NCBI GenBank assembly: GCA_017554385.1
Contig: JAFZIL010000094.1
Span: 1-47,645, forward strand
Length of the DNA: 47,645 nucleotides
DNA from: Prevotella sp.
GTDB taxonomy: Bacteria > Bacteroidota > Bacteroidia > Bacteroidales > Bacteroidaceae
Direction: 5' to 3'
In this document: in pieces, positions 342 through 9,782 of the stretch
Numbering within the stretch: the first letter of the stretch is position 1
How the letters are laid out: each line of letters begins with the position of its first letter
Notes under the pieces: model-generated
Databases searched by the model: none
The model's input: only the letters and a program-made list of their open reading frames with translations
What the model was told of the DNA's origin: nothing
Translations under genes and position numbers: made by a program

Positions 342-809
342 TCATTCATCAAAGATTTTTTTTAATGCTTTGATAACTACCAAATCTGCTGGCAACCACT
401 TCACGCTGTCCAGCTCATCCTTCGCGAGCCACTTCGCAGCTTCATGCTCATTCAGATGCAGCGCCTCCGTCAGTAGCGAGCAGAGATAGCAATGCATGGT
501 GAGATGGAACTTAGGATAATCATACTCTACTGTACAAAGGAACTCGTTTACATTAATCTCAGTCGACAGCTCCTCGCGAATCTCGCGCTTCAGCGCCTCT
601 TCTGGCGTTTCCCCTGCCTCCATCTTTCCACCTGGGAATTCCCACCCAGCCTTGCCTTCCAGGCGAGCCTGCTCCCACTCGGCAGAGCTCAAACAAGTTT
701 GGCTATGCTCTCGTTTACCCGCAGCCTTGTCATTCGCCAATCCTCGCTGAGTGGCGAATATCTTATCTCCTTTGCGAATAATCGCTGCTACTACTTCTAT
801 CTGTTTCAT
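342..809 (-). CDS. Nudix hydrolase, MutT-like (deoxy)nucleoside triphosphate pyrophosphohydrolase
   Basis: This is a 155-residue Nudix protein that probably hydrolyses oxidised or non-canonical (d)NTPs to the monophosphate and pyrophosphate. The Nudix box (G-x5-E-x7-REUxEE) is intact at about residues 61-81: GGKMEAGETPEEALKREIRE. The N-terminus (IEVVAAII, then FATQRG) and WEFPGGK match MutT-type enzymes, in which FATQRG is normally followed by about 10 residues before WEFPGGK. Here about 30 extra residues lie in between, including SSAEWEQARLEG; they are encoded by a palindrome-cored repeat (678-712). The ATG overlaps the vsr stop by 4 bp, so the two genes are probably translationally coupled and share the promoter near 1387. 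Pairing with Vsr suggests a mutation-avoidance operon. The exact substrate cannot be read from the sequence. Confidence 0.88.
   Translation of the reverse strand: MKQIEVVAAIIRKGDKIFATQRGLANDKAAGKREHSQTCLSSAEWEQARLEGKAGWEFPGGKMEAGETPEEALKREIREELSTEINVNEFLCTVEYDYPKFHLTMHCYLCSLLTEALHLNEHEAAKWLAKDELDSVKWLPADLVVIKALKKIFDE
678..712. repeat. In-frame palindrome-cored repeat inside the Nudix gene
   Basis: CTCGGCAGAGC, a 12-nt palindromic core (CAAACAAGTTTG) and a flank ending TGCTCTC form a unit that has a second copy at 7720-7755. The two flanks match while the palindromic core differs (GGAGCAAGCTCC in the other copy). In the Nudix gene the unit is read through in frame and lengthens the loop before the Nudix box. 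Confidence 0.6.
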
Positions 810-1366
810 ATCTCTTTTTCCGCTGCCATTGGCATTTGCATATTTTCTTCATCCAGTTTTGGATATGGGACTGCTTTTGCCCCATGATCCCGTAGCCATA
901 TGTGGTTCAGTGTGAACGCTATCGACTCCAGCGTCTCTTCCCGTTTCTTGGGTGTCAGCTCGCATTCCCACACCGTGATGCAGTGCCAGCCCATTGCAGC
1001 TAGTTTCTTCTGCTCCTCCTTGTCCCGTTCCTTATTCCTGCGAATCTTCGCCACCCAGAACTCCCGATTAGTCTTAGGAATCTTACAACACTCACTACTT
1101 TCCAAGTCCATTCTCCCCTCGCCCTTTGGAGAGGGGCTGGGGGTGAGGCTGCACTTGTGCCCATGCCAGAAACAACCATTCACAAAAATGCAGGTTCGGT
1201 ACTTCCTCAGGACCAAGTCCGGATGTCCAGGCAGTCGCTTATGGTTCAACCTATATCTGAATCCTCTCTGCCACAGACCACGACGCACAATCATTTCTGG
1301 CTTCGTGTCCTTCGAGTGGATTGCTGCCATGTTCTTATGGCGTTGTTGTGCGGAGAGTTTATCCAT
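806..1366 (-). CDS. vsr: Very short patch repair (Vsr) DNA mismatch endonuclease
   Basis: Vsr nicks DNA 5' of the T in T:G mismatches left when 5-methylcytosine deaminates, and so offsets the mutagenic effect of a C5-cytosine methyltransferase. The 186-residue protein shows the family landmarks: a start like 'LSAQQRHKNMAAIHSKDTKPE', then GFRYRLNHKRLPGHPDLVL with the catalytic Asp, IFVNGCFWHGHKC, and PKTNREFWVAKIRRN. Between HGHKC and CCKIPKTN lies an extra stretch with SLTPSPSPKGEG, encoded by a GC-rich palindromic repeat (1113-1147) inserted without breaking the frame; other Vsr proteins have only a few residues there. The likely partner methylase is the C5-MTase at 6004-7119. The start at 1366 lies about 20 bp after a good -7 box. 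Confidence 0.9.
   Translation of the reverse strand: MDKLSAQQRHKNMAAIHSKDTKPEMIVRRGLWQRGFRYRLNHKRLPGHPDLVLRKYRTCIFVNGCFWHGHKCSLTPSPSPKGEGRMDLESSECCKIPKTNREFWVAKIRRNKERDKEEQKKLAAMGWHCITVWECELTPKKREETLESIAFTLNHIWLRDHGAKAVPYPKLDEENMQMPMAAEKEI
1113..1147. repeat. GC-rich palindromic repeat, in-frame copy in vsr
   Basis: The element is a C-rich/G-rich imperfect palindrome (CTCCCCTCGCCC, TTTGGAGAGGGGC, then TGGGGGTGAG). Read on the minus strand it encodes LTPSPSPKGEG. It is nearly identical in DNA to the copy in the superoxide dismutase gene (14463-14498), although the host genes are unrelated. Confidence 0.8.
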
Positions 1367-1477: not shown

Positions 1478-2062
1478 ATGGAACACGACAAAGTCTCATT
1501 CGAGTTCAAGCACGTTCGTGAGAAGAACTACGACTCTTCTCATCCTCTTTACGACGCAATGAAGACCCTTTGCAACCCAGAGGGTGAGAATTGTGGTCAT
1601 ACTGCTGAATACAAAGGTCAGACCTTCCAACTCTATATGTGCAAAGACACCTATTACGATGAGTATGGCATTCCACAACGCGAAGTTTCCGTTTTAGGAC
1701 TTGACCAACAAGAAGACAGATGGAGTGTTTATCGGTATAATGCTGAGGAACTGGCTGAAAGAGCTAAGAAAATGGAACAACAGGAGTTCACCCCCCATAC
1801 CGTAGACTACGACTACAAAGACGGCAAACTCTCTTGGATATTTCGTCGCGACTACAACGATCGAAGAGAACTGGTACATATGGAAGATGCATTCTATGGT
1901 GACGGGTTGTTCGATGAATTCCAAGACACTCCTTACTATACACTGATTTCTGACCTAACCTACGAATATGACGAATATGGTAATTGGGTGCTCTGTTACC
2001 TTCATTGCGTTGATGGCCTGCAACCCGATGAACTCACGATTCGGGAGATAGAGTATTGGTGA
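1478..2062 (+). CDS. Uncharacterised protein with a YDEYGNW motif
   Basis: I do not recognise a named family for this 194-residue acidic, aromatic-rich protein. It has no signal peptide or membrane segment, so it is probably cytoplasmic. The C-terminal part (LTYEYDEYGNWVLCYLH, then REIEYW) resembles the 'YDxxGNW ... REIxY' units seen in many Bacteroidetes proteins related to YD repeats; two shorter YD-like stretches (YYDEYGIPQREV, VDYDYKDGKLSWIFRRDY) precede it. It has its own -7 box at 1448-1456. Its last 61 bp overlap the 3' end of the convergent nuclease gene, so the two transcripts are complementary there. It sits between vsr and the restriction genes, and a defence role is possible but unproven. 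Confidence 0.75.
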   Translation: MEHDKVSFEFKHVREKNYDSSHPLYDAMKTLCNPEGENCGHTAEYKGQTFQLYMCKDTYYDEYGIPQREVSVLGLDQQEDRWSVYRYNAEELAERAKKMEQQEFTPHTVDYDYKDGKLSWIFRRDYNDRRELVHMEDAFYGDGLFDEFQDTPYYTLISDLTYEYDEYGNWVLCYLHCVDGLQPDELTIREIEYW

Positions 2063-4230
2063 ACTGCTTGTTCTTTACAATGTGCAAAGAACTCGTCGCG
2101 AGTCTTACAGAATCCACGATATGCTGCTCTCGCCATTCCAAATCTTGCGGGATGCTCTAACTTTGTCCAGTCTGTGACGTTGAACATGATGCGAATAGGA
2201 TATTCGGCATCTGCGACCCTCTTCAGATTTGCTTTTGTCACTTTGTAATAGCCCTCAATATGTCCGCCAGGAATGATGGGAGCAATATATCGAACAGACT
2301 GGATGTCCTTTGCTTCTTCCATACCTTTCTTACCCATCACTATGCACGATGCTAATCCATTGATAACACTTTGTATATCCTCATTCACCTCTTTATCTAT
2401 AGTCAAAATCATATATACAGCATCCTTCGGCTCCTCCGATGTATAGTACAATCCCTTTTGTGGAATACTGTCGTTCAAAATCTCTGTTGAAGCCTTACCT
2501 ATTAGTTCTTCTATAAAGTGCTCCAACAACTTTCTGTTTTTCACATCATTGGGCCTCAATGGGAAAGCTCCGATGTTCACTTCATCAAGTGATTGTTGGA
2601 ACTTGGCTTTAGCCACCTCTATCGGGTCGCCATTACCTGGGAACAAGATGTAGCCGCCTATCACTTCCTTCTTCAACAAACTGTCACCCTCCTTGTTGTC
2701 CTTGTAGTAGATGGCATCACGATAGCGGTGCATCTGGTTGATGGCATCGTCAGGTGGGGTATCTACGCCAGCTTCAGTTCTGTCGTTGATACGGTATTTG
2801 GCATCAAAAAGGTAGGTCATCTTCATGCCCTTTTCGATGTCGTCCTTCGTCAGTTGTAGTACAATGTCAGGCTTTTGAGGAACAGTGTGACTCTCCACGT
2901 TTTCTATACCAACACCGTCGTTATCCTTTTCTGTGTGTTTCGGATTATAGACAAGCTCTGCCAATTCTACGCCATCTTTGCGGAACAAGATTCGTGAGTG
3001 TTCACCTTTCCCTAATTCCCACGTGAACACACCATTCATCTCCATGCGATTACGATGGTCCACATCCACATCGAGTCCTAATTGCTCCTTCACGATATGA
3101 CTCACCTCAATGAAGCACCAAATCTCGTAAAGGGTGGCTATGTCCTTCGACTGAAGCCTATACATACCATCGTTCAGCAAATAGGCACGCCTCAGCAGAT
3201 TCCACGTTCTATATATCTGACTATAGCCGGTAGCCCTTTGCAGTACTAGGCTCTCTTGATTCAAGCCTTTGAAACGTCCAACAGTTCTGAAGAATGGATT
3301 CCGCTGCAAGTACGTCAACGTTTTTTCCACGTCATTCATCTCCCGTTTCAGGGATTCCGAGGTATTCTTGATGGCCTCGATGCGCTTCTTCAGCATTTCG
3401 TATTTTGCAGCTATCTGTCCCAGCGCATATTTCAGGAAACGGTTCTCCTGTGTGTCGTTCGACTGCACGTGCTCCTCTACACAATAAAGGTGAGCCTGTT
3501 CCTTTCGATGTTCAGCCAACTCGTTCTCAATATTGGTGGGAACCCGTTTCAGTTTGTCAGCCCTCAAATACACCTCATAGCCACGAAGTCTGCGCCTTGG
3601 CCTTTCTATGATGCTGCGACAAGCCTTTATGAACTTCTCCTGCTCACCAGCAAAGATGCTCCACCAAATCAACTCTGGCGTATCACCTTTCGTGTCAGGC
3701 GAGAAACCATGAAACGTGCGCTTCATGTAGTCGAGTGCCAACATGCGGTATTCTGCTTCGATGTCCTCGACTATCTTCTTCCAATGTTCGTGGTAGTTCA
3801 GCTTGGTGCTCAGCACCTCATAACCAAGCTTGAAGTGCCGTTGCTCTTTACCTATATTATATACTATCTGCAGTTCGCTCCTGCCAATCTCGTTGCCATA
3901 GTTGATAAAACCTGCTAAAGTATGTCCTCTAAAGCTGAAGCGGTCGTTGTCTGCCTGAAGCATCGAGCCGAACTGGGCCTTGCTGACGTGACTGCCAAAC
4001 TCCACCCAGATAGGATATTCAGCATTATCGAAGAAAACAGCCTTAGCCTGTTCACCGTTTTCTATGGGTTCATCATTGATCGTTGCTGACTTCACACCAT
4101 CCGTCCAAGTGTAAGTAGTAAGCAGATTCTCTCTGCCCACATTCCTTACAGCCTTCCACCAGATGGCCTCATACTTCGAGCACTCCACATACATCGTGAA
4201 GTCCTCATGTTGTATCGTCAGCAGCTCCAT
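2002..4230 (-). CDS. DUF2357 / PD-(D/E)XK nuclease, McrC-like partner of the McrB-like motor
   Basis: This is the likely DNA-cleaving subunit of a McrBC-like restriction system. The 742-residue protein has a long N-terminal region with beta-rich and coiled-coil character (helical stretch around residues 270-310 with many K/E), then a nuclease core: PDIVLQL at about 457 and YLFDAKYRI at about 473-479, which fits the PD...(D/E)xK signature. This layout is that of the DUF2357 family usually encoded next to an AAA McrB-like protein. It starts 2 bp after the McrB-like stop, so the two are in one operon and probably form a complex. A role in cleaving DNA with the wrong methylation state is inferred from the neighbouring C5-methyltransferase, not from this protein itself. 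Confidence 0.8.
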   Translation of the reverse strand: MELLTIQHEDFTMYVECSKYEAIWWKAVRNVGRENLLTTYTWTDGVKSATINDEPIENGEQAKAVFFDNAEYPIWVEFGSHVSKAQFGSMLQADNDRFSFRGHTLAGFINYGNEIGRSELQIVYNIGKEQRHFKLGYEVLSTKLNYHEHWKKIVEDIEAEYRMLALDYMKRTFHGFSPDTKGDTPELIWWSIFAGEQEKFIKACRSIIERPRRRLRGYEVYLRADKLKRVPTNIENELAEHRKEQAHLYCVEEHVQSNDTQENRFLKYALGQIAAKYEMLKKRIEAIKNTSESLKREMNDVEKTLTYLQRNPFFRTVGRFKGLNQESLVLQRATGYSQIYRTWNLLRRAYLLNDGMYRLQSKDIATLYEIWCFIEVSHIVKEQLGLDVDVDHRNRMEMNGVFTWELGKGEHSRILFRKDGVELAELVYNPKHTEKDNDGVGIENVESHTVPQKPDIVLQLTKDDIEKGMKMTYLFDAKYRINDRTEAGVDTPPDDAINQMHRYRDAIYYKDNKEGDSLLKKEVIGGYILFPGNGDPIEVAKAKFQQSLDEVNIGAFPLRPNDVKNRKLLEHFIEELIGKASTEILNDSIPQKGLYYTSEEPKDAVYMILTIDKEVNEDIQSVINGLASCIVMGKKGMEEAKDIQSVRYIAPIIPGGHIEGYYKVTKANLKRVADAEYPIRIMFNVTDWTKLEHPARFGMARAAYRGFCKTRDEFFAHCKEQAVHQYSISRIVSSSGCRPSTQ

Positions 4231-4232
4231 AT

Positions 4233-6002
4233 TTAGCTCCAGAAACTTGTGTAACCGCTCTTTAGCCTATTCTCCATTTCAGCAAGTTTCTTTAGAGAAA
4301 TAGAATTGTCTTCTGAAAAGCTTTCACCCAAGAGTTCCTTAATAACCTTTATTAGACGTTCTAAGAGATTACCAATTCTGTCGGCATCTCCTTCTATTCG
4401 TGACAAGATCTTCATACTGATTATCTCGTCGAGAGCACGTTTTATTACATAATCATCTGTTTCGCCCTCTGTCTTGTATGGAAGATTGTTAACAACATAA
4501 AGCAGGAATTCGTTTCTGGTGCGATAAGCAATTTTGAATGGTGTGCCATTCAGTTCCTTATTAATAGTGTCGAGGTCTTCAATTACTTTATCACATACGG
4601 TATGATATGTCTTGTACACATCAACGCCCTCAACAGCACTACCAATCAGTTCTGCCTCCCCAAGCTTGCCTATCTGTTCGTAACGTTCCGTCAGTCCTCC
4701 CTTTAAATTGACTTCGTTCATCTCAATGGTCATTGCCCTGTCGAGCACTTTGCGCGAGAATGAGAATGTGGTTTCATCCATATTGACTGTTCCCACAACG
4801 ATAAGGTTCTGAGGGATGCTTACCCCTTCATCGCGGAATTGCTCTCTTAATTCCTCTTCAGAGGTTAATTCTCTACAGAGATTCCAATACCATTCAGAAC
4901 TGACGCTTTTCAATAATGGGTCTGTCGAAATATTACCCTCCTCATCAGCCTTCCTGCTTTCAACTACACTTAGGTATTCAGCGAAGTATTGCTCTACAGG
5001 AGCCAAGTTCATTTCATCAAGACAAAGGAAATAGGGAACATTAGGTTCTTCCCATGCTTTTGCCACGAATTTCAAGAAATCACCAGCCACATAGACAGGT
5101 TCTCCACTGACACGACTTACATAGCCAATCAGTTCACTCGAATCATGCCAGTTTGGCTTTACCTGCACCATCTCGAAGTTTCTTGGTTTCTGTGAATTGA
5201 ACTCTTCAGAATCTGCGTCCCAACAAGCACGAGCCAACTCACGAACAATACGAGATTTGCCAGTACCAGAGATACCTGCAAGCAGGAGGAATGGTTTTGA
5301 CTTGATGGCAGTGATATAGGGGCGATAGGTCTGATTGACTCTGGGGCAACTATATGTTCTTGCAGAAGGAGTACCTTGCTTGTAAAAGACATTCCAGCCA
5401 TCGGATTTGTGGAGCAATTCCAAGCAATCCAATCTTTCAGACAAAGCCTTGGCCAAAGTTCCAATAAGACTACTTGACGCATTGATGGAATTTGCTATGT
5501 TTAGTACTGGTGATTCCGCAAAATCGTTGGCTCTTTTTATATTCTTACCTCCTCCCCAACTGTCATAGTCCCATAAGAATCTTATCAGATAATCCTTGTC
5601 ACTGCCAGAGTAGGTCGCAAGATACTGCTTCGCTTTTGCTTCCCTTGCTTCTTTTGTTCTTTCTTCTTCAGGTATTCTTCTATTATCTGCACTTGGATGA
5701 CATGCTTCAAACATATCATCTGTTATCCCAAGTGAGATAAGCTTATCTCTATATGCGAACAGTTCACGGTTATATTCGCAACACATGGCTGCTATAAAAA
5801 TCCATTGGTTGGGAACTATACAGACAGACTTCTGTGACGATATTTTCAATGTGTACTGATAATACTCTTCTATTCGGTAATTGCCGAATTCAGTAAATCT
5901 TTCCTTGAACGCTTGCGGTAAGGCACAGTCTTCCATGTTGGCTTCTTTTATCTTTTGAGCCAGTTGCGTTCGCTTTATTTTTAAATCCACAAGTTCTGCC
6001 AT
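4233..6002 (-). CDS. McrB-like AAA+ NTPase (restriction motor subunit)
   Basis: The AAA+ core carries a Walker A GISGTGKS at residues 243-250, a Walker B CLDEMNLAPVEQYF at about 327-340 with the 'DEMNLA.VE.YF' form typical of McrB-type ATPases (AAA_5), and a sensor segment GTVNMDETTFSFSRKVLDRA at about 404-423. The first ~230 residues lack the methyl-DNA-binding domain of E. coli McrB and are unlike anything I can name; they may provide target recognition. GTP rather than ATP use is usual for McrB but cannot be decided here. The gene lies 1 bp after the methyltransferase stop and 2 bp before the nuclease start, so methylase, motor and nuclease form one operon, as in LlaJI/BsuMI-like systems. 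Confidence 0.88.
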   Translation of the reverse strand: MAELVDLKIKRTQLAQKIKEANMEDCALPQAFKERFTEFGNYRIEEYYQYTLKISSQKSVCIVPNQWIFIAAMCCEYNRELFAYRDKLISLGITDDMFEACHPSADNRRIPEEERTKEAREAKAKQYLATYSGSDKDYLIRFLWDYDSWGGGKNIKRANDFAESPVLNIANSINASSSLIGTLAKALSERLDCLELLHKSDGWNVFYKQGTPSARTYSCPRVNQTYRPYITAIKSKPFLLLAGISGTGKSRIVRELARACWDADSEEFNSQKPRNFEMVQVKPNWHDSSELIGYVSRVSGEPVYVAGDFLKFVAKAWEEPNVPYFLCLDEMNLAPVEQYFAEYLSVVESRKADEEGNISTDPLLKSVSSEWYWNLCRELTSEEELREQFRDEGVSIPQNLIVVGTVNMDETTFSFSRKVLDRAMTIEMNEVNLKGGLTERYEQIGKLGEAELIGSAVEGVDVYKTYHTVCDKVIEDLDTINKELNGTPFKIAYRTRNEFLLYVVNNLPYKTEGETDDYVIKRALDEIISMKILSRIEGDADRIGNLLERLIKVIKELLGESFSEDNSISLKKLAEMENRLKSGYTSFWS

Positions 6003-6003
6003 A

Positions 6004-7119
6004 TCACATTAATTGTTTTACAATTTCTTCTGCAAGCCTCTTAATGACAGGAATAGCTACACTGTTCCCAAACTGATGGTAAGCCTCTTTTTTCGAGACA
6101 ACAATTCTGAACTCTGGGTTAGAGTCGTTATAGTTCTGATTGTTGGCACACTCAGGATGTTCCCAGCCATTGCCAATAATCCTATATCCTTGTAATCTTC
6201 CAGCTTCAACAGGGGTTAGTGTTCGAGGGTTAAGCCCCTTGTCTGACTGGTCAATTAGTATCTCGCTGCCGTCCTTCCAATAACGGGCTGAGATGGTACT
6301 CGTATAAAGACTCTCTGCATTGAATAGCGAATATCCAAAGCCTTTACCATTCTGCTTGTTACGCTCTTTGCGGTTCTGATGCCCTATCCACATACGGTCT
6401 GAGATAGTGAACTTTTGGTCCATTGTCTCACTCGGTTCAAAGATATCGGACACCTTGGTTGGCATAGTACCCTCTTTCAGTTTTTCTTTGTCATAAATGG
6501 TCTTGCCGTCAGGAGCAATACCCCATGGGAAACGGAATCCATCTACATTAACCAGTTCTTTATACCATGCGATAATGAATAGACGTTCTCTATTCTGGGG
6601 AACACCAAAGTATTTGGCATTGAGGACTTCGTATGAGTAACCATACCCAAGTTCTTCAAGAGTAGCAAGAATGACCTTCAACGTATTCCCTTTGTCATGG
6701 TTCTTCAGACCTCTTACGTTCTCAAGGAATAACACCCTTGGTGGAACACCAGCATTAATCTTCTCCTTCACAATGTTTGCGATGTTGAAGAACAATGTGC
6801 CTCGCGTATCATCGAAGCCTCGTTTCAATCCTGCGACAGAGAACGGCTGACATGGAAATCCGCCACAGCATACATCAAAATCAGGTATCTCTGACGGAAC
6901 AGCATCGTTGATGTCTTCATTGAAATAGAGGTATCGTCCCTCTTTATCTTTAGCAAATAGTTTGGGTTCTATATCTTTGTAGTTTGCCTCGTATGATATT
7001 CTAGCGTTCTTGTCCCACTCACTTGCATACACGCACTTACCACCAACGCTGTGCATAGCAGTATGAAATCCGCCTATTCCTGCAAAGAGGTCTATAAAAC
7101 TGAATTTCTTCTTTGACAT
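6004..7119 (-). CDS. DNA (cytosine-5-)-methyltransferase
   Basis: This is a C5-cytosine methyltransferase of 371 residues that uses SAM. Motif I FIDLFAGIGGF is near the N-terminus, motif IV GGFPCQPFSVAGLKRGFDD with the catalytic Cys is at about 85-103, motif VI ENVRGL is near 132, motif VIII QNRERLFIIAW is near 175, and the C-terminal motif X region reads FGNSVAIPV. The frame is open upstream to 7239, but the extra 40 residues (TLIRAWTIRLLSDVG...) look non-coding and would be read from a structured leader; MSKKKFSFIDLFAG at 7119 is the natural start. No ribosome-binding site stands out, and a terminator-like hairpin ends just before the ATG. The target site is unknown. It probably protects the host from the co-transcribed McrB-like/nuclease pair. 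Confidence 0.92.
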   Translation of the reverse strand: MSKKKFSFIDLFAGIGGFHTAMHSVGGKCVYASEWDKNARISYEANYKDIEPKLFAKDKEGRYLYFNEDINDAVPSEIPDFDVCCGGFPCQPFSVAGLKRGFDDTRGTLFFNIANIVKEKINAGVPPRVLFLENVRGLKNHDKGNTLKVILATLEELGYGYSYEVLNAKYFGVPQNRERLFIIAWYKELVNVDGFRFPWGIAPDGKTIYDKEKLKEGTMPTKVSDIFEPSETMDQKFTISDRMWIGHQNRKERNKQNGKGFGYSLFNAESLYTSTISARYWKDGSEILIDQSDKGLNPRTLTPVEAGRLQGYRIIGNGWEHPECANNQNYNDSNPEFRIVVSKKEAYHQFGNSVAIPVIKRLAEEIVKQLM

Positions 7120-7120
7120 T

Positions 7121-7150
7121 AAAAAGCCCTCTCTTCGTTTTCGAAAAGGG
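7121..7150 (-). terminator. Intrinsic terminator directly upstream of the methyltransferase start
   Basis: On the minus strand CCCTTTTCG, a loop of AAAA and CGAAGAGAGGG form a hairpin followed by C and five T, ending 1 bp before the methyltransferase ATG. Its placement means that transcripts from upstream must read through it to express the methylase operon. Confidence 0.55.
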
Positions 7151-7300
7151 GGCGTGGAAGAAGATGTGTATAACCAAGGCTTAGGACAGCCCACATCAGA
7201 CAACAATCTAATAGTCCACGCCCGTATGAGCGTAAACATCCAATTGCTTGTCCGACTGATGTGTTTCCTGAGGTCCTAATTCTGGTTAATCAGTCAATCA
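7150..7300 (-). promoter_or_regulatory. Structured leader with competing pairings upstream of the methyltransferase
   Basis: Collinear complementary blocks form a long hairpin: TAACCA (7171-7176) with TGGTTA (7283-7288), TTAGGAC (7181-7187) with GTCCTAA (7273-7279), and CACATCAG (7192-7199) with CTGATGTG (7256-7263). A second, overlapping pairing joins GGGCGTGGA (7150-7158) with TCCACGCCC (7215-7223), one strand of which lies in the loop of the first hairpin and the other next to the terminator at 7121-7150. This is the geometry of an attenuator, but no ligand or riboswitch family is recognised. Confidence 0.5.
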
Positions 7301-7438
7301 AGGATGTCAAAGACGCTTTGTATTTCTTACTCTTTTCTTGTTCTATTTATAGTTGTCCGCAAACACCCTGTGCGAACGGGGTTAACAACTTTGGCTAACT
7401 ACAAATAAAAAAGCGCGGGTGCTTACATCTGCCCGTTC

Positions 7439-7640
7439 GATATTCGAGGTCTTAGGAAACCTATAGCTGTAAACAGACAGAGAAACACCCACGTTGAGGT
7501 ATATAAACACCCGTAAAGTGTGCTTGTGAGGACATGGTTAGCCCTCGCAGCACACTACGGAGAGTATATACTACACCCCGTGGAGTTACCCCTGCATTTG
7601 TTTCGGACAGCTATTCGGAAGTTCCTAAGTTTCGAATATC
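7439..7640. repeat. 202-nt imperfect inverted repeat (long hairpin)
   Basis: Paired blocks in order are GATATTCGA/TCGAATATC (7439-7447, 7632-7640), CTTAGGAA/TTCCTAAG (7451-7458, 7622-7629), ATAGCTGT/ACAGCTAT (7463-7470, 7607-7614), GTATATA/TATATAC (7499-7505, 7565-7571), CCGT/ACGG, AGTGTGCT/AGCACACT (7517-7524, 7549-7556) and GAGG/CCTC, with a terminal loop near 7532-7542. All blocks are perfect and collinear. Confidence 0.85.
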
Positions 7641-7719
7641 CAAAAACAAAGCGTCAGTAACGCCTTTCAATATGTAGTGCTCCACCCATCGGTTGACCTT
7701 CGGTCTTCTTCTCAAGCGA

Positions 7720-7755
7720 CTCGGCAAAGCAGGAGCAAGCTCCCGCTCTGCTCTC
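7720..7755. repeat. Second copy of the palindrome-cored repeat found in the Nudix gene
   Basis: CTCGGCAAAGC, a palindromic core GGAGCAAGCTCC and a flank ending TGCTCTC match the flanks of the 678-712 copy, while the core differs. On the minus strand it forms one of the hairpins of the candidate RNA. Confidence 0.6.
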
Positions 7756-7816
7756 GCTGCACGGTCAGTTCCGTCATCCTCAGAGGACATCGCTGCCGCA
7801 ACGGGCAGATGCATTT

Positions 7817-7825
7817 GCAAAAGTA
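7817..7825 (-). promoter_or_regulatory. -7 box for the candidate structured RNA
   Basis: TACTTTTGC on the minus strand fits TAnnTTTGC. The 5' strand of the RNA closing helix begins about 6 nt downstream, where a transcription start is expected. No clear -33 TTTG is seen. Confidence 0.5.
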
Positions 7826-8005
7826 CGAAATAATATCGAATTTGAATCATTCCTAACACTTTTTTACACATCTTTTAAGATTGTAGTATTCCTTTGAGCC
7901 TACTACTTGGCTCGTATCAGTCCGTAAGGAGCAAACTCTTGGTCCGTAGGCAGCGGACTTGCAATCCGTAAAGACTGACTGGGAGACATATGGGCTGAGC
8001 ATTTA

Positions 8006-8086
8006 TTCCCACACTGGGAACAAAATATTCCCACACTGGGAACAAAATATTCCCACGCTGGGAATGAACTGTTCCCACGGTGGGAA
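8006..8086. repeat. Four-unit palindrome array with exact 22-bp period
   Basis: Four 15-bp palindromes of the form TTCCCAnnnTGGGAA start at 8006, 8028, 8050 and 8072, exactly 22 bp apart. The 7-bp spacers are AT-rich (CAAAATA type). A second array of the same design is at 14104-14184. The spacing of two helical turns suggests binding sites for a dimeric protein on one face of the DNA. Confidence 0.85.
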
Positions 8087-8283
8087 TATATAACGAGGTT
8101 CTTGCGTCCTTTTAGTAGCAAGCGAGAAGAGCTCGAGCGACGGCTCGTTGGTAGTGAGCCGTAACGTCGTTGGCAACGAGCAGTAATATCGTGAACTGAG
8201 AGACTGCGTTTCTCTGATAGCGAGAGACCGTTTCTCAATAGGCATGCAGTATTTTCTCTTAGGCCTACCAGGAAAAAGGAATG

Positions 8284-8552: not shown

Positions 8553-9782
8553 ATGGAAAAAGTACTGGAAAAACAAGCTGAGGCCGTTCTGGCCTCAAAC
8601 GGAGGATTGCTCGCTGTGGAGCAGTTCCTTCAGAACCATTATCTCTTCCGCCGCAATGTGCTGAGTGGAAAGATAGAGTTTGCAACGCTGCCCGCTGAGG
8701 ATGAGCCTGAGTATCGTGAGCTGACGCCTGAGGCCGAGATGAGCATCATCATCCGAGCCCGCAAGGAGTTGGCAGACGAGAAGTGCAATCCTAAGTCGGA
8801 CATTCAGGACCTGCTACGTTCAGAAGAGGTTCGTGCGTATGATCCTATCCGCGAGTTCCTCAACGGTCTGCCCCAATGGGACGGACAAAACCACGTGGCT
8901 CGTCTCTTCTCTCGCTTGCCAGGACTCTCAACGGAGCAACATCACTTCTTGGCTGTATGGCTGCGTTCGGCTGTGGCCCACTGGCTACAGATGGACATGC
9001 TGCACGGCAATGAGTGTGTGCCTACGCTGATTGGTGCTCAAGGTTGTGGCAAGACTTCTTTTGTACGTCGTCTGCTACCTCAGCAACTGCGCCAGTACTA
9101 TCTGGATCATCTGAACCTCTCGAACAAGTTTGACAAGGAGATGGCGCTGACGAACAATCTCTTCGTGAACCTCGATGAGCTTGATGCCATCCGGCCCTCC
9201 CAGCACCCTGCGCTGAAGCAGACACTCTCGAAGAGTAAGGTGAATGGGCGTCCTATCTTCGGACGAGCCCAGGCTGACCGTCCTCGTTATGCCTCGTTTG
9301 TTGCTACGACGAACAATCCTCATCCGCTGACGGATTTCACAGGAAGTCGTCGCTACATCTGCCTTACCATCCCTGACGGGCAGCTGATAGACAATACGGG
9401 TGATATTGACTATCAGCAACTATATGCGCAGGTGCTGTATGAACTGCGTGAGCTGAAGGCGCCGTATTGGTTTAACAACGATGAGGTGACCCGTATTCAG
9501 GAGTTGAACCTCGACTACATGGCCAAAAAGGATATGACGGAGATGATTGAATCCTGTTTCCTGAAACCTCAGGAGAGTGAGACGGGCCAGATGATGAGCA
9601 ACACGGAGGTTCTCAGCATCCTGACCAAGGCGTTCCCTTCGCTGAAGATGATGGCAGGACTAAGCATCAAGTTAGGGTTGGCGATGAAGAAGCTGGGCTT
9701 CGAGCAGACACATCCCCACAATGTTGCTCACTACAGGGTTATTCCCAAAATGAAGACAATGATGATTCAAGAGGCCGCCTGA
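8553..9782 (+). CDS. VapE/VirE-family ATPase with DUF3874-type C-terminus
   Basis: This 409-residue protein has a P-loop ATPase core of the VapE/VirE type: Walker A GAQGCGKTSFVRR at about 160-172, a LFVNLDELDAI Walker B-like strand at about 204-214, and VATTNNPHPLTDFTGSRRY, the arginine-containing segment typical of the family. The C-terminal ~90 residues (NTEVLSILTKAF... LGLAMKKLGFEQTHP... YRVI) resemble the DUF3874 winged-helix domain that follows VapE in Bacteroidales. There is no N-terminal primase-like domain, which longer relatives have. VapE proteins are typical of phages, satellites and plasmids, where they act in replication, but stand-alone chromosomal copies are common in Bacteroidetes. 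Repeats on both sides suggest a former mobile unit. Confidence 0.85.
   Translation: MEKVLEKQAEAVLASNGGLLAVEQFLQNHYLFRRNVLSGKIEFATLPAEDEPEYRELTPEAEMSIIIRARKELADEKCNPKSDIQDLLRSEEVRAYDPIREFLNGLPQWDGQNHVARLFSRLPGLSTEQHHFLAVWLRSAVAHWLQMDMLHGNECVPTLIGAQGCGKTSFVRRLLPQQLRQYYLDHLNLSNKFDKEMALTNNLFVNLDELDAIRPSQHPALKQTLSKSKVNGRPIFGRAQADRPRYASFVATTNNPHPLTDFTGSRRYICLTIPDGQLIDNTGDIDYQQLYAQVLYELRELKAPYWFNNDEVTRIQELNLDYMAKKDMTEMIESCFLKPQESETGQMMSNTEVLSILTKAFPSLKMMAGLSIKLGLAMKKLGFEQTHPHNVAHYRVIPKMKTMMIQEAA

Follow-up and report, generated by a model that had tools for sequence, protein, structure and literature searches.

Riboswitch and attenuator leaders are 5' leaders that lie before the first gene and combine an intrinsic terminator with a mutually exclusive long-range pairing. 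EAR, a family of Bacillales, has a role in antitermination, and its clients are surface polysaccharide operons. The put RNAs are, like EAR, processive antitermination RNAs, and we know of no conserved terminator that overlaps the epsC/EAR structure. The epsC motif (EAR) is described as a pseudoknotted leader RNA (PMC2864571). The leaders that depend on LoaP, UpxY, or RfaH comprise a leader element and a terminator before long accessory operons and rely on a NusG paralogue together with a small hairpin or a DNA site; UpxY is encoded by Bacteroidetes (PMC12691694).

We analyzed a 47,645-nt stretch of DNA from Prevotella sp. (referred to as the window, at its full length), in which an RNA locus on the minus strand shares the layout of riboswitch and attenuator leaders. 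It differs from them in three respects: it has no known ligand or aptamer core, its clients are restriction-modification and surface operons instead of one metabolic pathway, a mixture of genes that suggests no ligand, and it carries a covarying hairpin past the T-run that captures an arm of the terminator. The RNA resembles epsC/EAR in being a pseudoknotted leader, but EAR is another family; Rfam shows no match here, and only the position and the client genes fit EAR and put. With the LoaP, UpxY, and RfaH leaders it shares a terminator and a position before accessory operons, but the RNA is followed by a NusG-like first gene at just 3 of 123 loci. A SAM riboswitch, an idea that arose from the SAM-dependent methylases among the clients, was rejected because many clients are not such methylases. 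We consider it probable that the RNA is a bistable terminator/antiterminator 5' leader of a methyltransferase operon and belongs to a cis-acting Bacteroidales family unlisted in Rfam.

The operon lies on the minus strand. Its first gene encodes a C5 cytosine DNA methyltransferase (6004..7119; PF00145, E = 7.5e-82; MTase_II), which most likely starts at 7119, the longest ORF beginning at 7239. The second gene encodes an AAA_5 ATPase (4233..6002; PF07728, E = 7.8e-06) that we take to be McrB-like, and the third a protein with DUF2357 and a PD-(D/E)XK nuclease domain (2002..4230; PF09823 and PF04411), presumably McrC-like. A Vsr-type nicking endonuclease is encoded near the cytosine methylase operon (806-1366, minus strand). 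On the plus strand, divergent from the RNA, lies a gene for a VapE-like/DUF3874 protein (8553-9782); such proteins are typical of Bacteroidota mobile elements. Upstream of the RNA, at 8004-8091, tandem TTCCCACnnTGGGAA palindromes occur with 22-nt spacing, possibly as a repeat or a regulator site.

The first-pass annotation had proposed a structured RNA with its own promoter and terminator directly upstream of the methyltransferase operon, possibly a regulatory RNA. The features that it named (a -7 box, a T-run, a 12-nt complement, and several small hairpins besides a long one of 202 nt) were all found in the minus-strand sequence, and its placement of the RNA and the suggestion of a regulatory role are supported. 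The minimum free energy of the 421-nt stretch was -178.9 kcal/mol, compared with -127.0 kcal/mol (sd 5.3) in dinucleotide shuffles (z -9.8; 0/100 shuffles as low), a stability far beyond that of the shuffles. The promoter is predicted from a Bacteroidota -7 box, TACTTTTGC, at 7817..7825 (minus strand). The motif TAnnTTTG was found upstream of the RNA in 115 of 129 related loci, with a peak at one distance, compared with 95 of 1059 control windows. In the 32-row alignment described below, the -7 boxes were chosen by pattern and by eye, so their invariance there carries no weight as evidence. No family reached the gathering score in the window in Rfam 15, the database check that had been called for, and relaxed thresholds around the locus gave six weak matches, all with E of 0.18 or more. 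No tRNA or tmRNA was found. Together with the covariation of several helices described below, which holds in 98 independent copies, these results indicate that the structured RNA is genuine and matches no Rfam family. In the papers listed, PMC8040213 among them, titles and abstract openings describe no leader RNA of Bacteroidales restriction genes; the family could still be an unnamed entry in one of the large candidate-RNA lists.

When 201 genomes from the family of the window were searched at the DNA level, 114 gave matches at E 0.1 or better; many of these were a repeat alone or short pieces, and ~30 were true copies of query positions 134-426. Of 35 BLAST loci, L044, L064, L065, and L066 were omitted as partial or truncated, and the remaining 31 were aligned with the window copy between the -7 box and a point past the T-run, giving 32 aligned copies. 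Wider searches used R1, a covariance model built on the central arm that contains 9 base pairs only, is mostly a sequence model, and excludes L071 and L072. At E 1e-5, R1 gave 157 matches within the window's family, in 98 of the 399 genomes; a few of these were two-strand hits of one copy, and 40 genomes had more than one match. Across the order, 17 of 393 genomes were hit at E 1e-3, and five further families gave E below 1e-8; a class-wide draw of 345 genomes gave two, the window's own and one congener. The window's own genome contains a second, diverged copy (L150, G000:C81; E 4e-4), and an ORF in the same direction begins 66 nt beyond its terminator. A 24-base consensus matched 115 stretches in named genomes, and the 80 matches listed came from Prevotella and other Bacteroidales, many of them ruminant and including the cultured Prevotella communis E15-14.

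The independent set was assembled from 80 new loci, taken best scores first from ~150 places in the family-wide R1 list, and 20 order-wide hits, some of them weak (E up to 4e-4). Two short-flanked loci were omitted, and none of the remaining 98, which include a few near-duplicates (L137/L138 and L228/L229), had been used to derive the structure. In total, 132 copies from Bacteroidales genomes were compared.

Two alternative folds emerged from this comparison. In state A, a long arm of 202 nt (7439..7640, minus strand) is composed of helices A2 (the outermost, 7640-7633/7446-7439), A3 (7629-7622/7458-7451), A4 (7613-7607/7470-7464), A5b (7595-7590/7482-7477), and A6 (7583-7579/7493-7489), together with the central arm. 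Two-sided changes were observed at 28 of its 39 pairs, and its covariation score was 0.438 compared with 0.204 after shuffling (0/500 shuffles). In A3, for example, CTTAGGAA/TTCCTAAG is replaced by CTACCACA/TGTGGTAG. A structure-free covariation scan of the 32 copies also ranked the long arm highest: 10 of the 20 best column pairs fell within A2, A3, or A4, 7 were off-register between the same two loops, and 3 lay inside one loop. In state T, a terminator hairpin (7414..7493, minus strand) is formed by T1 (7493-7483/7424-7414) and T2 (7481-7471/7438-7428) with a GG..CC tip, and is followed by the T-run of a predicted intrinsic terminator (7407..7412). Here, 15 of 25 pairs had two-sided changes, and the score was 0.330 compared with 0.227 (0/500 shuffles). 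The best 6-nt window at the terminator contained at least five T in 130 of 132 loci, a count taken from the best window and without a background control. The covariation in homologues that the first-pass annotation had named as a check is thus strong for several helices, and the terminator it had predicted covaries across copies.

The numbers of two-sided pairs were equalled in 0/500 shuffles for the terminator, 1/500 for the long arm, and 4/500 for the set of pairs that crosses the T-run. These counts are not probabilities, since the copies are related and shuffling leaves their relatedness in place. A swap test was applied helix by helix, and A2 (z -16), A3 (z -8), A4 (z -18), T1 (z -7), and T2 (z -8.5) were supported, as was A5b (z -3.6, 0/300); helix S was weakly supported (z -2.4). 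A5a (z -0.7, 65/300) and A6 (z -1.5, 26/300; nearly invariant) failed the test, which gave no support to either as part of the state-A model. In the 98 independent loci, the pairing of loop I with loop II through A2-A4 gave z -42 and T1 and T2 gave about -11, while the two control pairings, included as negative controls, gave z 0.8 and 0.9.

At the 5' end, a hairpin, P1 (7679..7812, minus strand), pairs the 5' strand locally with the strand just before ACUACAUA, its base being UCUGCCC (7809-7803) with GGGUGGA (7687-7681). The energy of this pairing was -16.6 kcal/mol compared with -12.5 kcal/mol for swapped partners, and 0/300 swaps were as good. A conserved small hairpin, P2 (AAAGGCGUUACUGACGCUUU; 7648..7667, minus strand), follows in the alignment (1/300 swaps). 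In the window copy, the loop of P1 contains a palindromic dispersed repeat of ~80 nt (7692..7771, minus strand; query positions 55-134) with TGACC/GGTCA near its ends. DNA searches placed this repeat outside the RNA family: genomes related at the family level contain many solitary copies of it, it occurs in tandem in G050:C26, and it is missing from the related RNA copies printed. The window copy is therefore best described as an RNA of ~340 nt with an insertion of ~80 nt. The first-pass annotation had also proposed that a 12-nt pair closes the RNA. An exact complement (7800-7811/7426-7437) is present in the window copy, but across the family its own pairing was no better than that of swapped partners (29/200 and 29/300 swaps as good). 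As this pair is not conserved and the 5' strand pairs locally, it is an alternative private to the window copy, which it perhaps biases toward the read-through fold.

We next considered whether the two folds can coexist. The terminator loop has 35 nt, almost all of which are taken up by helices A2-A4, and no spare base remains as a linker to T2. On this geometry, A2-A4 and T2 should not both be complete at the same time; a kissing complex of full A2-A4 and the full terminator was rejected on these steric grounds. A5b and A6 use some of the same bases as T1 and T2. Given that A5a is unsupported and A6 near-invariant, direct competition at the terminator 5' arm would come mostly from A5b and from the sterics of A2-A4. 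The alignments show a conserved alternative pairing, whose incompatibility with the terminator is in part a steric argument. Constrained energies for the 32 copies, predicted by nearest-neighbour folding with pseudoknots ignored, were widely spread around balance: dG(T)-dG(A) had a mean of +0.7 kcal/mol and a range of -11.1 to +16.2, and was positive in 19 copies. For transcripts ending at the T-run, the antiterminator pairing was likelier than the terminator in 18 of the 32. We take this pattern to indicate a bistable switch, although single copies may be biased to one side. The window copy, at +16.2 kcal/mol, is predicted to be firmly in state A, probably aided by its private 12-nt pair, and may therefore be constitutive.

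Conserved pairings were also found across and beyond the T-run. A post-terminator hairpin, PS (GUUCGC/GCGGAC; 7355..7377, minus strand), presents the loop sequence GGGUGUUU (7368-7361), which forms a pseudoknot, helix P, with AAGCACCC in the terminator 3' arm (7424-7417). In helix P, 80% of cells were paired and 6 of 7 pairs had two-sided changes, as did 6 of 6 in PS. For the whole set crossing the T-run, 15 of 22 pairs had two-sided changes, and the covariation score was reached by 0/500 shuffles. Both helices passed the swap test (P, z -8.7; PS, z -7.6; 0/300 swaps), and helix P gave z -7.5 in the 98 independent loci. A perfect 8-bp P was present in 73 of 132 loci compared with 22% of swapped pairs; the P partner was lost in L048, L050, and L051. 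A third pairing, Q, in which the 5' strand ACUACAUA (7671..7678, minus strand) would reach across the T-run to 7405-7398 immediately behind it, had weaker support: 85% of cells were paired, 3 of 8 pairs had two-sided changes, and the swap test gave z -4.0 (0/300), but Q was not significant in the 98-locus set (11/200 swaps). These comparisons indicate that the RNA runs past the T-run. The free-standing gene of ~400 nt ending at the T-run, as first annotated, is thus replaced by a co-directional leader whose conserved pairings cross that point.

Between the first RNA and the methylase start at 7119 lies a second element (element 2; 7120..7310, minus strand), in which the alignment shows a long arm, a hairpin resembling a terminator, and the possibility of pairing GGGCGUGGA with UCCACGCCC instead. 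It has 82-93% identity with fifteen other loci over most of its length and weaker identity with L221; with L221 not counted, element 2 and the first RNA stand in tandem at 16 of 132 loci. A search of 201 genomes found element 2 in 13, eight of them at first-RNA loci. In its long arm, 14 of 30 pairs had two-sided changes (0/500 shuffles), and its tip is of the GGCUGUxxUAxGCC type, as in many copies of the first RNA. The GGGCGUGGA:UCCACGCCC pairing is conserved and almost invariant (62/500 shuffles), and the terminator-like hairpin ends beside the start codon in most rows. Element 2 is probably a second leader related to the first RNA and may also be a switch.

The genes behind the RNA were examined at the 132 loci. 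The next called ORF lay on the strand of the RNA in 123 of 127 cases, compared with 79 of 125 upstream neighbours (Fisher, 2e-12). Taking longest-ORF starts, 85 of the 123 downstream genes began within 100 nt past the terminator and 27 at 101-350 nt, with the median start 60 nt past the point just behind the terminator. Pfam assigned these first genes, with overlapping counts, to C5 cytosine methylases (34), ResIII (8), N6 methylases (7), SNF2 (7), PLD (5), D12 methylases (4), TdeIII (3), and MmeI (3); non-defence genes included acyltransferases (5), MBOAT (3), BspA-like repeats (3), and NusG (2). By sequence clusters, whose representatives were checked against Pfam/NCBIfam, 34 C5 methylases, 7 N6/HsdM, 7 SNF2-PLD helicases, 4 D12, and 3 TdeIII made up 55 of 123 first genes, the other 68 falling outside restriction or methylation assignments. 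These 68 include a cluster of six related first genes (L068, L169, L210, L212, L214, and L220), of which the three tested matched no family (two against Pfam and three against NCBIfam, L169 against NCBIfam only). The 125 upstream neighbours showed no bias toward methylases: no family exceeded 3 of 125 there, which leaves at most 1 C5 methylase, and some defence models also matched at 2-3 of 125 each, as expected in defence-rich regions. One genome (G767) contains five copies, before C5 methylases (L154 and L177), an HsdM (L178), an acyltransferase (L170), and a hexapeptide-like gene (L173, below cut-off).

At the level of sequence, then, the comparison establishes both folds, the capture hairpin, the co-directional gene, and the bias toward restriction-modification genes; we further infer that state T is OFF and state A is ON. 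In the proposed mechanism, transcription would start near 7811 at the predicted promoter. In state A, strands 7640-7607 and 7470-7439 would pair and hold the terminator strands apart, so that polymerase reads through; in state T, 7493-7414 would fold as an intrinsic terminator and transcription would stop at the T-run. In read-through RNA, the freed terminator 3' arm would be captured by the loop of the hairpin past the T-run, and this capture, perhaps with the ACUACAUA pairing across the T-run, would lock the ON fold near the first start codon in most copies. Candidates for the signal that tips the balance are a small molecule, a protein such as a NusG paralogue, the speed of transcription, and phage attack.

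The chief rival to this simple switch is a processive antitermination RNA, a reading that we regard as unlikely. The state-A fold and the post-terminator hairpin would then bind polymerase, alone or with a NusG paralogue (UpxY), so that polymerase would pass the leader terminator and later ones in long accessory operons. Its standing comes from the mixed defence, surface, and NusG-like clients, which resemble those of NusG paralogues (RfaH, UpxY, and LoaP) and of epsC/EAR, namely accessory operons, surface polysaccharide, and defence. The three NusG-like genes among the 123 first genes (L148 and L180 by Pfam, and L197, which matches the UpxY family at E 7e-20, below the model cut-off) lie directly behind the RNA and could tie the leader to NusG-paralogue antitermination. 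Furthermore, the conserved post-terminator pairings would fit best if the read-through RNA itself acts, and element 2 places another terminator-like hairpin farther downstream. Against this, a simple switch accounts for the two folds alone, and no antitermination RNA is matched in Rfam. A NusG domain was not found in the window's own assembly, which is 81% complete and in which even the housekeeping NusG is missing, so that this absence is uninformative.

It is considerably less probable that the RNA is an independent small RNA acting in trans, with the operons as mere neighbours. The predicted promoter and the conserved terminator would suit such an RNA, with a product of 340-400 nt released at the T-run. 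However, P and PS lie past the T-run and covary with the terminator arm, and P can matter only once polymerase has read through, which is evidence against an RNA that ends there and acts purely in trans; the nearly uniform co-direction of the downstream ORFs (123/127) and their short median distance (60 nt) point the same way.

Very improbable is a mobile RNA element or fossil repeat inserted upstream of genes by chance. The frequency of the RNA in its family (98/399 genomes, 40 with more than one match) and one broken-off copy (L066) would agree with mobility, whereas the covariation over deep divergence and the fixed orientation to the next gene would not. In addition, viral contigs contained no exact 24-mer match and plasmid and phage collections no blastn match, so a phage or plasmid element was rejected.

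The least credible reading is a retron msr-msd or other reverse-transcribed RNA. In the window copy, small hairpins followed by a long hairpin and framed by a complement do recall that layout, as the first-pass annotation had remarked. The reading was rejected because this leader has no reverse transcriptase at its locus (within the genome of the window, RVT_1 matches are confined to contigs C7 and C62, the window being C94, and RVT_1 is absent from the 25 families shown for the 123 downstream genes, hidden families having at most one member) and its flanking a1:a2 pair is not conserved.

Correct order and timing are essential when restriction-modification operons are activated; to our knowledge, RNA switches are not a recognized means of achieving this. 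On the preferred reading of a bistable leader, the RNA folds either as a stop signal or as a read-through form and probably decides whether these operons are switched on. The mechanism is directly testable in vitro, since every base is assigned in both folds, in the capture hairpin, and in the second leader. Unrelated operons of one genome can be preceded by diverged copies, as many as five, which suggests one common signal and an RNA-defined regulon; a large covarying leader common to unrelated defence and surface operons within genomes likewise points to a one-signal regulon. Unlikely, but worth stating, is the fuller proposal that the leaders of several restriction-modification and surface operons in a genome are all flipped by one signal, which might be a phage attacking transcription or translation, and that the flipped RNA remains with the polymerase as a processive antiterminator. 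If true, one RNA circuit of rumen and gut Bacteroidales would gate immunity and the surface coat together.
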